From: a virus
Direction: 5' to 3' (one strand)
Length of the DNA stretch: 20,739 bases
Virus record (IMG/VR): IMGVR_UViG_3300006790_001002
Coordinates: 1 to 20,739 of that record
Below are positions 6,418 through 9,045 of this stretch, piece after piece. The notes under the pieces are model-generated. The model saw only the letters and a program-made list of their open reading frames with translations, did no database searches and was not told where the DNA came from. Position 1 is the stretch's first letter. Each line of letters opens with the position of its first letter. A program made the position numbers and the translations under genes.

Positions 6418-6858
6418 ATGGCAACAACCTGCTTGACCAACAACTTCCGCAAAGGCTTGCTGAAAGGCGATTTTGATTTCGATTCGACAGTGCAGGACTT
6501 TTATATGGCGCTGTACGATACGTCCGGGCATGGCTACAACACAACGGCTTATTCATCGACCAACGAATCGTCAGGCAGCGGCTATTCGCCCGGCGGCACG
6601 GACATGGGTGATTTCACGCAAGCTACCGATACCACCAACAACGTATCGTATCTTGATAACATCACTGACCCGTCATGGGCAACGTCTACCATTACCGCCA
6701 CGGATTGCCTGATTTACCGTTCTGGCGGCAGTTCTCCGGTAGCCAATGCTTCGGTGTACGTGGGTGATTTCGGCGGCTCAAAATCGTCCAGTTCCGGCAC
6801 ATTTACGGTCGTATTGCCCGCAGCGGCATACAACACGGCGATTATTCGTCTGGCCTGA
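6418..6858 (+). CDS. Small virion protein of a common environmental-phage family
   Basis: A 146-residue Ser/Thr/Gly-rich protein with a strong SD (AGGAGA, 6407-6412) before the ATG. The layout is an N-terminal NNFRKGLLKG helix, a DFYMALYDTS strand, a TAYSSTNESSGSGYSPGG loop, a mid-domain DCLIYRSGG strand and a C-terminal FTVVLP strand. I associate this pattern with a family of small hypothetical phage structural proteins often found near fibre genes. It is predicted to be an all-beta surface or decoration protein. Its stop overlaps the start of a sulfotransferase-like gene by one base, so the two are probably translationally coupled. Confidence 0.6.
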   Translation: MATTCLTNNFRKGLLKGDFDFDSTVQDFYMALYDTSGHGYNTTAYSSTNESSGSGYSPGGTDMGDFTQATDTTNNVSYLDNITDPSWATSTITATDCLIYRSGGSSPVANASVYVGDFGGSKSSSSGTFTVVLPAAAYNTAIIRLA

Positions 6859-7445
6859 TGGACCCCGTAGTCAGCGTCCCACATTCGGGTACGCGCTCGC
6901 TTGTCCGATCACTGGGCACGACGCAGTTCTACCATTTTGGTCAGAACGAAAAAGACATCGAAAAGCTGTCGCATTTCCATTTCCCCATGCGCGATCCGCT
7001 GGCGGTCAGCCTCAGTTGGCGCAGCTATTACCCGGATCGTGACAGGGGGGTGCATCCTGAAGACGCTCTAAGGTGGAACGAAAAGCAAACTTTCGATGAG
7101 TTCCGGCGCTGGTCGCTGGCTATTGCGTGGATGAAGGATCACGACCATACCGTCCACATGATGAATGAATACCCGAATCTGGAAGGTCGTACCAGCGAAA
7201 GCTTTTGGTGGAAGAAGGCTTATAAATGCTGGGACATTGACGCCTTACTGGTATTACCGGAAGTGGAATATTTGTTGGAGTGGATTACAATTCCATCCGT
7301 ACAGTCATTTTTTTTGCAGTATTACCCGGAGGGCTTCTGGTGGGCAGAAATGGCAAGGCAACCCAACTTGAAACGCTCGGCCAACAAGGATACCTCGGCG
7401 GCTGGATTACAACCCACTTACAGGGACGGACGATTGATTGCCTGA
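6858..7445 (+). CDS. Compact sulfotransferase-like protein
   Basis: A 195-residue protein with two signatures of PAPS-dependent sulfotransferases. Near the N-terminus, VVSVPHSGTRSL (residues 4-15) matches the 5'-phosphosulfate loop. FPMRDPLAVSLSWRS (42-56) matches the 3'-phosphate site, with Arg45 and Ser53 at the family's 8-residue spacing. The lysine normally found in the first loop (PKSGTTWL in typical members) is His9 here. The two motifs are only about 36 residues apart, versus about 100 in cytosolic enzymes, so this is a compact or divergent member. The start is TGATG, overlapping the upstream stop, with no convincing SD, so reinitiation is likely. The last ~40 residues look non-conserved and overlap the next gene. 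A run of eight T (7308-7315) lies just before this tail. It could be a divergent enzyme, a nucleotide-binding fold with another role, or a broken gene. Confidence 0.55.
   Translation: MDPVVSVPHSGTRSLVRSLGTTQFYHFGQNEKDIEKLSHFHFPMRDPLAVSLSWRSYYPDRDRGVHPEDALRWNEKQTFDEFRRWSLAIAWMKDHDHTVHMMNEYPNLEGRTSESFWWKKAYKCWDIDALLVLPEVEYLLEWITIPSVQSFFLQYYPEGFWWAEMARQPNLKRSANKDTSAAGLQPTYRDGRLIA
7308..7316 (+). other. T8 slippery run, candidate -1 frameshift site
   Basis: Eight T residues (7308-7315) followed by G lie inside the compact sulfotransferase-like gene. In its frame, bases 7310-7316 read T TTT TTG, which fits the X XXY YYZ form of a -1 slippery heptamer. A -1 shift enters the frame of the following ORF, which stays open to 7612, giving a fusion of about 250 residues. 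No downstream pseudoknot was identified, so the site may be only a homopolymer or a sequencing length error. Confidence 0.3.
7328..7332 (+). promoter_or_regulatory. Shine-Dalgarno site deciding a GTG start
   Basis: GGAGG lies 7 bases before a GTG at 7340 and inside the 3' end of the preceding gene. It is the best-placed ribosome site for the overlapping downstream ORF. The ATG at 7280 has no comparable site. Confidence 0.5.
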
Positions 7446-7612
7446 TGCGGGATGGCCTTTACCTGATTATCCGTTGTACCGATGGGCATGAAGCCCGTAT
7501 TGGCTGGCAGGATACACACGGTAATCAGCTAAAGGGTGATCCCTTCTTGGAAAACCTTGATGTTAAGATAGCAGTACCGGGTGCTGGCTTCAGAGGGCAG
7601 GCAGGTTCGTGA
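7340..7612 (+). CDS. Small conserved-looking hypothetical phage protein
   Basis: A GTG-initiated 90-residue protein. The start is chosen for the GGAGG at 7328-7332. Other candidates are an ATG at 7280 without SD and an ATG at 7445 that overlaps the upstream stop as TGATG and would leave 55 residues. I favour 7340 because the sequence from GRNGKATQLE through GYLGGWI, GRTIDCLMRDGLYLIIR and DGHEARIGWQD reads as one compact domain, with alternating strands and a repeated DG turn. It overlaps the 3' end of the sulfotransferase-like gene by about 106 bases, unusually long for this window. No function is recognised. It could instead be the C-terminal part of a frameshift fusion with the upstream gene. 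Confidence 0.5.
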   Translation: MGRNGKATQLETLGQQGYLGGWITTHLQGRTIDCLMRDGLYLIIRCTDGHEARIGWQDTHGNQLKGDPFLENLDVKIAVPGAGFRGQAGS

Positions 7613-7779
7613 GCAAGCCGAAGAAAAAAGACCCGACAAACGTACCGCTCGACAAACTACAGGTTGGCGGGATTATCACGGTTTTGGACAAGGACGGTAA
7701 CGTCAAGTCCAGAATGAAGATCGTAAGCGTGGAAACCAGAGAGGAAAAGAAAGATGGAACTCAGCACGACAGTTCGTAA
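7609..7779 (+). CDS. Tiny lysine-rich hypothetical protein
   Basis: A 56-residue ORF starting at GTG 7609, which overlaps the preceding TGA as GTGA, and ending at TAA 7777-7779, 26 bases inside the next gene. It begins SKPKKKDPTN and continues LQVGGIITVLDKDGNVKSR, a strand-turn-strand pattern, then ends in a charged tail. A purine-rich AGAGGG lies about 11 bases upstream of the start. No family is recognised. Without it the interval 7613-7753 would be empty, which in such a tightly packed region favours a real gene. Confidence 0.45.
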   Translation: MSKPKKKDPTNVPLDKLQVGGIITVLDKDGNVKSRMKIVSVETREEKKDGTQHDSS

Positions 7780-8173
7780 CTCAATGCTGGATGCCATTGA
7801 TGACGATGTGACCACCGACGGCTATTTCCGGCTCTACAATCAAGACCCGGATACCGCAACCGGTCTGATCAAGATTGCCAGTTGTGGCGGTAACAACCCG
7901 TTCTTTGAAAATGCGGGCACCGGTACCGCTGGCGTCATGTCAATGGACAACAGCCCAGCCGTTGAGGACACGGCCCCTGCTGCGGGTACAGTAACGTATG
8001 CCGGTATCTACGATGGTACCGCCGCTGCTGCCAATGCTTGGTTGGTGAAGTTGGGCGTGGATACCACGGGTAGCCCGGATTTGACGATGGCCAATAACAC
8101 GGTGGCAACGACCGATACTGTGCAGATCACCAGTTTCAGTATCACCATGCCAGCGGGTACGCCAGCAACGTAA
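7754..8173 (+). CDS. Small virion protein, second family member-type
   Basis: A 139-residue protein with a purine-rich ribosome site (AGAGAGGA just upstream) before its ATG. An N-terminal LSTTVRNSMLDAIDDD helix leads to a GYFRLYNQDPDTATG strand, a Gly/Ala-rich middle, TVTYAGIYDGTAAAAN and a final VQITSFSITMPAG strand. This layout matches a frequent family of small phage structural proteins that start with LSTTV.N.ML.A. It is similar in architecture, though not obviously in sequence, to the protein at 6418-6858. It too is followed at a one-base overlap (TAATG) by a sulfotransferase gene. A virion surface or tail role is likely. Confidence 0.6.
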   Translation: MELSTTVRNSMLDAIDDDVTTDGYFRLYNQDPDTATGLIKIASCGGNNPFFENAGTGTAGVMSMDNSPAVEDTAPAAGTVTYAGIYDGTAAAANAWLVKLGVDTTGSPDLTMANNTVATTDTVQITSFSITMPAGTPAT

Positions 8174-9045
8174 TGTCCAACGAGTCCACGGATCAGGGGA
8201 TTACGTGGCTTGCATCGTATCCAAAGAGCGGCAATACATGGTTGCGATTGTTGCTGGAAGCATACCGACGAAACGGTTTGCTGGACATCAATGATGTCCG
8301 TATCTGCCGAAACGATGGTTCGTCATCCGTAATCCAGTCGGTATCTCCGATGCCCTTGGAGCCCTTACATCTCCAAGGTGAATTGCTGTTGCGCCCTGCC
8401 GGTTTACTAAACCTCCGCGCTACCGGCAGAGCGCCTTTTTTCCTCAAAACCCACTTCTGCAATCTCACGTTTGAGGATTGCGCCCCCAATATTCCACCGC
8501 AATTTACGTCGAAAGCCATCTACGTGGTGCGTGATCCGCGTTGCGTTGTGTCCAGCGCCCACAAGCACTTCGGATGCAGTCTGCAAAAGATGGTCAAAAA
8601 CATGAATCAGAAGGACTTTTGTGTCGGTATAGCGGCTCAGGGTTTCTCTCGTTCATGGGTATCCACATGGTCAAACCATGTGTCATCGTGGACTTCGGAG
8701 GAAAAATTCAAGGTTCATGTCGTCAAATACGAGGACATGAAGAACGATACAGCCAAGGAATTGACGGCAATATTGGAATTTCTTGAGTGGGACGTAAGGC
8801 CAAAACGGGTACGCAAGGCCATCAAAGCGGCTGATTTCAAACGCTTGCAGAAAATCGAGCAGGATGGCGGGTTTGTCGAAAACCGCAAGACTTCCAGCGA
8901 TACATTCTTCAATGGCGCAACATTGGACTGGCGCACTGAGATTGGCGAAAAATGGGCACGAATCATCGAAAACGACCACCGGGAGGTAATGACTGCTTTA
9001 GGGTATCTTGAACAGGAGCCCGCAGAACTAACCGCCGTGTCATAG
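8173..9045 (+). CDS. PAPS-dependent sulfotransferase domain protein
   Basis: A 290-residue protein close to the normal length of cytosolic or carbohydrate sulfotransferases. These enzymes move a sulfuryl group from PAPS to a hydroxyl or amine. The motifs lie in order: WLASYPKSGNTWLRLLL (12-28) is the 5'-phosphosulfate loop with Lys18; FFLKTH (89-94) places His94 where the family's catalytic base lies; YVVRDPRCVVSSAHKH (117-132) is the 3'-phosphate site with Arg120 and Ser128 at the canonical 8-residue spacing; VVKYEDMKND (183-192) follows; and WRTEIGEKW (253-261) corresponds to the C-terminal cofactor region, though the leading Arg-Lys-Gly is not present. Lys18, His94, Arg120 and Ser128 all match the expected active-site positions, so it may be active. 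The acceptor is unknown. The start overlaps the virion protein stop (TAATG) with no clear SD. Cytoplasmic, no signal peptide. Confidence 0.88.
   Translation: MSNESTDQGITWLASYPKSGNTWLRLLLEAYRRNGLLDINDVRICRNDGSSSVIQSVSPMPLEPLHLQGELLLRPAGLLNLRATGRAPFFLKTHFCNLTFEDCAPNIPPQFTSKAIYVVRDPRCVVSSAHKHFGCSLQKMVKNMNQKDFCVGIAAQGFSRSWVSTWSNHVSSWTSEEKFKVHVVKYEDMKNDTAKELTAILEFLEWDVRPKRVRKAIKAADFKRLQKIEQDGGFVENRKTSSDTFFNGATLDWRTEIGEKWARIIENDHREVMTALGYLEQEPAELTAVS

Follow-up and report, generated by a model that had tools for sequence, protein, structure and literature searches.

ST2, a predicted PAPS-dependent sulfotransferase of an uncultured phage, is encoded in a fixed, translationally coupled pairing with the gene for a small virion protein, VSP, and this setting is the main new result of our analysis. 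The DNA analyzed, hereafter the window, is a 20,739-base IMG/VR fragment (record IMGVR_UViG_3300006790_001002). Every gene treated here lies on the + strand, in a single block shared with head and tail genes. The block includes the gene for the major head protein (MCP; 12883-13863, phrog_9953, 9e-100), whose product is ~40-52% identical to the MCPs of Bradyrhizobium, Stenotrophomonas, Myxococcus (Mx8/Mx9) and Ruegeria phages, and together with further tail and head families it bears out the phage structural cluster described in a first-pass annotation of this DNA. That annotation had placed two sulfotransferase-like genes at 6858-9045; the second, ST2, is upheld by its PF00685 match, while the first, ST1, found moderate support and no library match, and the stretch holds further genes between them, namely P3, a 56-aa gene and VSP. 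A search of 50 capsid-related phage records, counting the window, showed a PF00685 gene in only 3, so that the sulfotransferase function is optional in these phages. Elsewhere in the window, a GNAT-type acyltransferase gene (phrog_4470; 17309-17761) is retained among the tail genes in this phage lineage, and a 1459-aa tailspike-like protein (132-4511) bears a Chondroitinase B domain (PF14592, 3.2e-17) and may target an acidic polysaccharide.

ST2 (8173-9045, + strand; 290 aa) was recovered by the Pfam search proposed for it as a full-length Sulfotransfer_1 domain (PF00685, 7.3e-22), scoring 78 bits against a cut-off of 22, with residues 11-276 aligned to positions 4-254 of the 255-position profile; a match to PF13469 was also observed (3e-9). 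The active-site residues listed in the first-pass annotation, Lys18, His94, Arg120 and Ser128, all proved exactly right, and K92 is present as well, within the motifs ASYPKSGNTW (the P-loop, with K18), K92-T-H94, RDPR (with R120) and S128. Across 19 aligned relatives, no variation occurs at K92, H94, R120 or S128, and K18 is nearly invariant, the enzyme of contig L270 having Arg in its place. Such an invariant active site over a deep clade implies selection for catalysis. ST2 is thus by sequence a genuine Sulfotransfer_1 protein with predicted PAPS-site and catalytic residues, and we infer that it acts as a PAPS-dependent O-sulfotransferase of a phage-specific clade. The closest solved structures by PDB sequence search were Teg14, Teg12, StaL and the SULTs. 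ST2 resembles Teg12/Teg14, StaL and the cytosolic SULTs in its PAPS loop, K-T-H catalytic stretch, R-D-P...S 3'-phosphate motif and full-length domain, but differs from them in belonging to a phage-only clade and in its linkage to a virion-protein gene.

Within this phage-only clade identities are about 43-52%, whereas no bacterial match found exceeds about 36% identity to ST2. Relatives were collected by an alignment-based scan and by motif scans of viral contigs; single-protein scans of viral contigs with ST1 or ST2 returned no match. By the alignment-based scan, at least 86 viral contigs encode an ST2 relative; as the scans retain the best matches, their sampling is uneven. In described phages, by contrast, tblastn with ST2 and three of its relatives gave no match in 50,697 records, so that the initial view of these genes as uncommon holds for described phages and fails for uncultured ones. 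Viral and bacterial sulfotransferases separate almost completely: in a 197-protein tree, only three label changes were required by the viral sequences, compared to about 50 in shuffles, with the window's ST2 inside a starred viral clade. Bacterial relatives of the ST2 family are nevertheless widespread.

Several neighboring arrangements were seen in these contigs. Nearby sulfotransferase-like genes are paired in L112 (5803-6477), L115 and L121/L123, the second gene of L112 being compact and hardly recognized by Pfam. In another capsid-related phage, contig L030 (L088:97-684), a compact sulfotransferase of 195 aa (PF00685, 8e-10) lacks the usual SGNTW loop. In L139, an APS kinase gene (4619-4996; PF01583, 1.7e-21) lies 3' of a P22-type coat gene and directly 5' of a sulfotransferase gene, and is a possible phage-encoded supply of PAPS.

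The cassette that contains ST2 spans about 1.5 kb and runs from a gene for a 56-aa 'DKDGNVKS' protein (7609-7779, + strand, with a predicted GTG start) through VSP (7754-8173, + strand; 139 aa) to ST2. VSP and ST2 meet in a TAATG overlap, a 1-nt stop/start coupling, and TAATG or TGATG overlaps are frequent at VSP/ST2-type junctions. Ten close relatives have VSP directly upstream of the enzyme gene (L105-L109, L153, L154, L120, L270 and L271), and in the window and these ten the ST2-type start lies at -4 to +11 nt from the VSP end. A similar small DKDGNVKS-type frame sits directly 5' of VSP in L105, L106, L107, L108, L109, L153, L120, L270 and L271. L120 is the contig of L003, a phage whose capsid protein is 82% identical to that of the window and in which an ST2 homologue (42% identity) directly follows a VSP homologue. 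Recurrence of both enzyme-virion gene junctions, that of ST2 and that of ST1, in independent contigs ruled out an assembly artefact.

Searching with VSP alone recovered 11 contigs, and all 11 have a sulfotransferase immediately downstream; the query was built from enzyme-linked VSPs and is biased towards enzyme-linked cases. The search for the enzyme had already yielded nine of these contigs, and the two new ones had been missed by the enzyme-side pattern because Arg replaces the P-loop Lys there. No sulfotransferase accompanies the more divergent VSP-like genes of L023 and L028, which indicates that VSP is not always in need of one. The portals beside the cassette fall into three families (phrog_12082, phrog_1216 and phrog_146), suggesting that the cassette moves, or is shared, between phage lineages. 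Among more distant phage sulfotransferases, at least 28 of 51 nearest upstream neighbors belong to virion families: 13 are VSP-like, seven are Gp80 (fibre I of phage GP4), five are P22-type coat proteins and three are adaptor or tail proteins.

VSP matched phrog_3758 (2.8e-10 over residues 3-134), and its AlphaFold model (pLDDT 84, pTM 0.72) found its best PDB fold match in chain 9rkv_A of the phage 7-7-1 tail fibres (E 1.7e-3, prob 1.00, TM 0.59). At its tail-fibre site (9RKV) that phage has fibres of two kinds, short and long, together with a garland protein, a small homodimer (PMC12796354). On the strength of this modelled fold, VSP is probably a fibre-associated subunit of the virion, and its length of 139 residues would best fit the garland protein. 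A second point of comparison is fibre I of Ralstonia phage GP4, gp80 (PF23140, 8JOU), as a Gp80-family gene lies immediately 5' of seven other phage sulfotransferase genes, in one case with a sequence match to 8jou_a. VSP, however, is no clear Gp80 member: the window protein had no match to PF23140 in the Pfam search, the L003 VSP reached 0.0017 and 19 bits, below the cut-off of 27, direct comparison of the VSP and Gp80 profiles was not significant (hhalign P 0.099), and no GP4 chain was among the 50 matches listed in the VSP fold search. The VSP and phrog_644 profiles gave no significant match to PDB sequences, and profile comparison did not support a common ancestry of the VSP, Gp80 and phrog_644 proteins. 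Sulfotransferase-linked VSPs contain 1 to 4 tyrosines with no obvious dedicated acceptor common to them. We rejected a conserved sulfated tyrosine on VSP, as the best conserved one also occurs in the enzyme-less L023 and L028 and is absent in L270 and L112.

Downstream of ST2 lies a gene for an 854-aa repeat protein (9055-11619, + strand) with twelve PTATG-type repeats, mostly at 21-residue spacing, which is presumed to be an elongated fibre component; a PDB sequence search with it gave no significant match. Its counterpart in L003, also downstream of VSP-ST2, has 1786 aa (L003:3374-8734), and the two proteins have repeat and C-terminal regions in common. The number of PTATG-type repeats varies between related phages, and the C-terminal part is also common to L002 and L004.

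A similar coupling was observed at the ST1 site. ST1 (6858-7445, + strand; 195 aa, core about 165 aa) immediately follows a gene for a 146-aa small virion-type protein (6418-6858, + strand; phrog_644, 4.7e-8), a 56% identical homologue of which immediately precedes the ST1 homologue of L089/L093. The ST1-type start overlaps the upstream stop by one base, as TGATG in the window and TAATG in L093. On its other side is P3, a conserved phage protein of about 90 aa (7340-7612, + strand), supported by codon usage and with a putative GTG start, which overlaps the ST1 3' end in another frame. In L091, L092 and L094, P3 comes straight after the phrog_644-type gene, leaving the ST1 site empty, whereas in the window and L093 an ST1-type gene lies between them; ST1 is thus optional, inserted at one defined position. 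The last ~30 residues of ST1 (7340-7445) overlap P3; the L093 homologue ends earlier, and ST1 may therefore have lost an older stop. Genes for CxxCxxCC-type (PF03692-like) proteins either neighbor the enzyme gene or replace it downstream of phrog_644-type genes (L003:2316-2672, L109:5834-6184 and L099-L101:4447-5025).

The first-pass annotation had called ST1 compact and divergent, in keeping with its 195 aa and lack of any match to Pfam, PHROG or the PDB even at permissive E-values. The suggested Pfam and viral-library check thus failed to place ST1 in a family, but a homologue was found in another phage: scanning viral contigs with the pattern P-x-R-D-P-L-A-V-x-x-S/T-W identified one contig (L089/L093), whose 150-aa homologue (L089:6695-7147) is 36% identical to ST1. 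Codon usage supports most of the ST1 frame but dips around 6970-7135. Judged by its motifs and its profile score, ST1 is probably a compact, divergent sulfotransferase relative, and it is unlikely, if conceivable, that it is instead an unrelated small P-loop-like protein. The missing library and PDB matches would suit the latter, as would the His that both proteins have in the P-loop where most sulfotransferases have Lys or Arg, and the structure model from a two-sequence alignment is unusable (mean pLDDT 34). Yet the SVPHSGT loop and the RDPLAV motif, identical in ST1 and the sole homologue found, are the most conserved blocks of the pair, and ST1 scored 5-6 bits against a profile of 19 sulfotransferases, a weak score that nonetheless exceeds all 300 shuffles. 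The L093 homologue reached 0.5 bits against the same profile, with 2 shuffles as high, but aligned with it, weakly, at both the P-loop and RDP motifs. Profile-profile comparison of ST1 gave an alignment limited to RDPLAV, which fell on the 3'-phosphate motif (P = 0.0056). His26 of ST1, conserved between the motifs, is a candidate catalytic base.

Given the fixed, coupled and mobile pairing of a fibre-associated protein with an enzyme, the simplest reading is that the enzyme acts on the fibre. We tentatively favor, as a plausible though insecure interpretation, that ST2 is a late-expressed PAPS-dependent enzyme that sulfates the fibre made alongside it, with ST1 as a probable compact cousin. 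The cassette would be expressed late with the virion genes, host-made PAPS would serve as the sulfate donor, and ST2 would sulfate the fibre to whose assembly VSP contributes, the sulfate going onto the protein itself or onto an attached glycan, so that the particle would change in charge and binding. ST1 would be a compact cousin added after the other small virion protein (phrog_644) by the same type of coupling. An APS kinase beside a sulfotransferase, as in L139, would be a direct supply of PAPS in that one phage and speaks indirectly for PAPS-dependent sulfate transfer by ST2. Against virion sulfation, adjacency is no proof of the acceptor, and cargo often lands among late genes as well. 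The enzyme-less VSP-like genes, the want of a shared acceptor tyrosine in linked VSPs and the scarcity of PF00685 genes in capsid-related phages weigh on the same side. A stronger form of the proposal, that a transferable cassette sulfates its own fibre protein so that enzyme and substrate move together between phages with different portals, is possible but doubtful.

The enzymes might instead act late in infection on a glycan of the host surface, keeping progeny off debris or shutting out competing phages, and the neighboring virion gene would then simply secure late expression; this is a serious rival, though we consider it less likely. Bacterial relatives of the family are widespread, Teg/StaL-type enzymes, the nearest solved structures, are known for carbohydrate or glycopeptide sulfation, and the lyase domain on the upstream tailspike-like protein makes an acidic host polysaccharide a plausible receptor. 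However, structural-gene timing is late for the exclusion of competitors, and host modification leaves unexplained why one virion-protein family is paired with one enzyme clade across differing portals. Of the two roles raised in the first-pass annotation, sulfation of host surface glycan and decoration of the virion, the fixing of ST2 to a virion-protein gene within the structural block favors the latter, and does so by inference only. Less probable still is that the enzymes are cargo at a permissive insertion point, where insertion is harmless, and act on host metabolites or lack a fixed role. Such an origin would accommodate the empty ST1 site in three relatives, the other genes held at comparable places, such as CxxCxxCC-protein genes that follow either a phrog_644-type gene or the enzyme, and the arrangement in L023, where VSP is directly followed by a gene like that following the enzyme in L111. 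It fits poorly with a pair never seen broken in the close VSP clade (11/11), and with the selection for catalysis implied by the invariant ST2 active site.

Sulfotransferase domains have been described in marine phages, in OM43 phage metagenomic genomes and in Synechococcus phage S-SRM01, and in the relevant passages the authors call the function of sulfotransferases in phage genomes unclear (PMC10580990). As in the window, these domains are phage-encoded, but they belong to Sulfotransfer_3 and are listed as metabolic genes, and the passages concerned report no link to a virion-protein cassette (PMC10580990). The pairing of enzyme and virion genes provides a specific, testable substrate for a phage sulfotransferase, in a cassette small enough to be expressed whole. 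Collectively, the recurrence of this gene pair in unrelated phages suggests that the phage decorates its own particle, and virion sulfation, if true, would represent a novel way of modifying phage particles, with an effect on adsorption.
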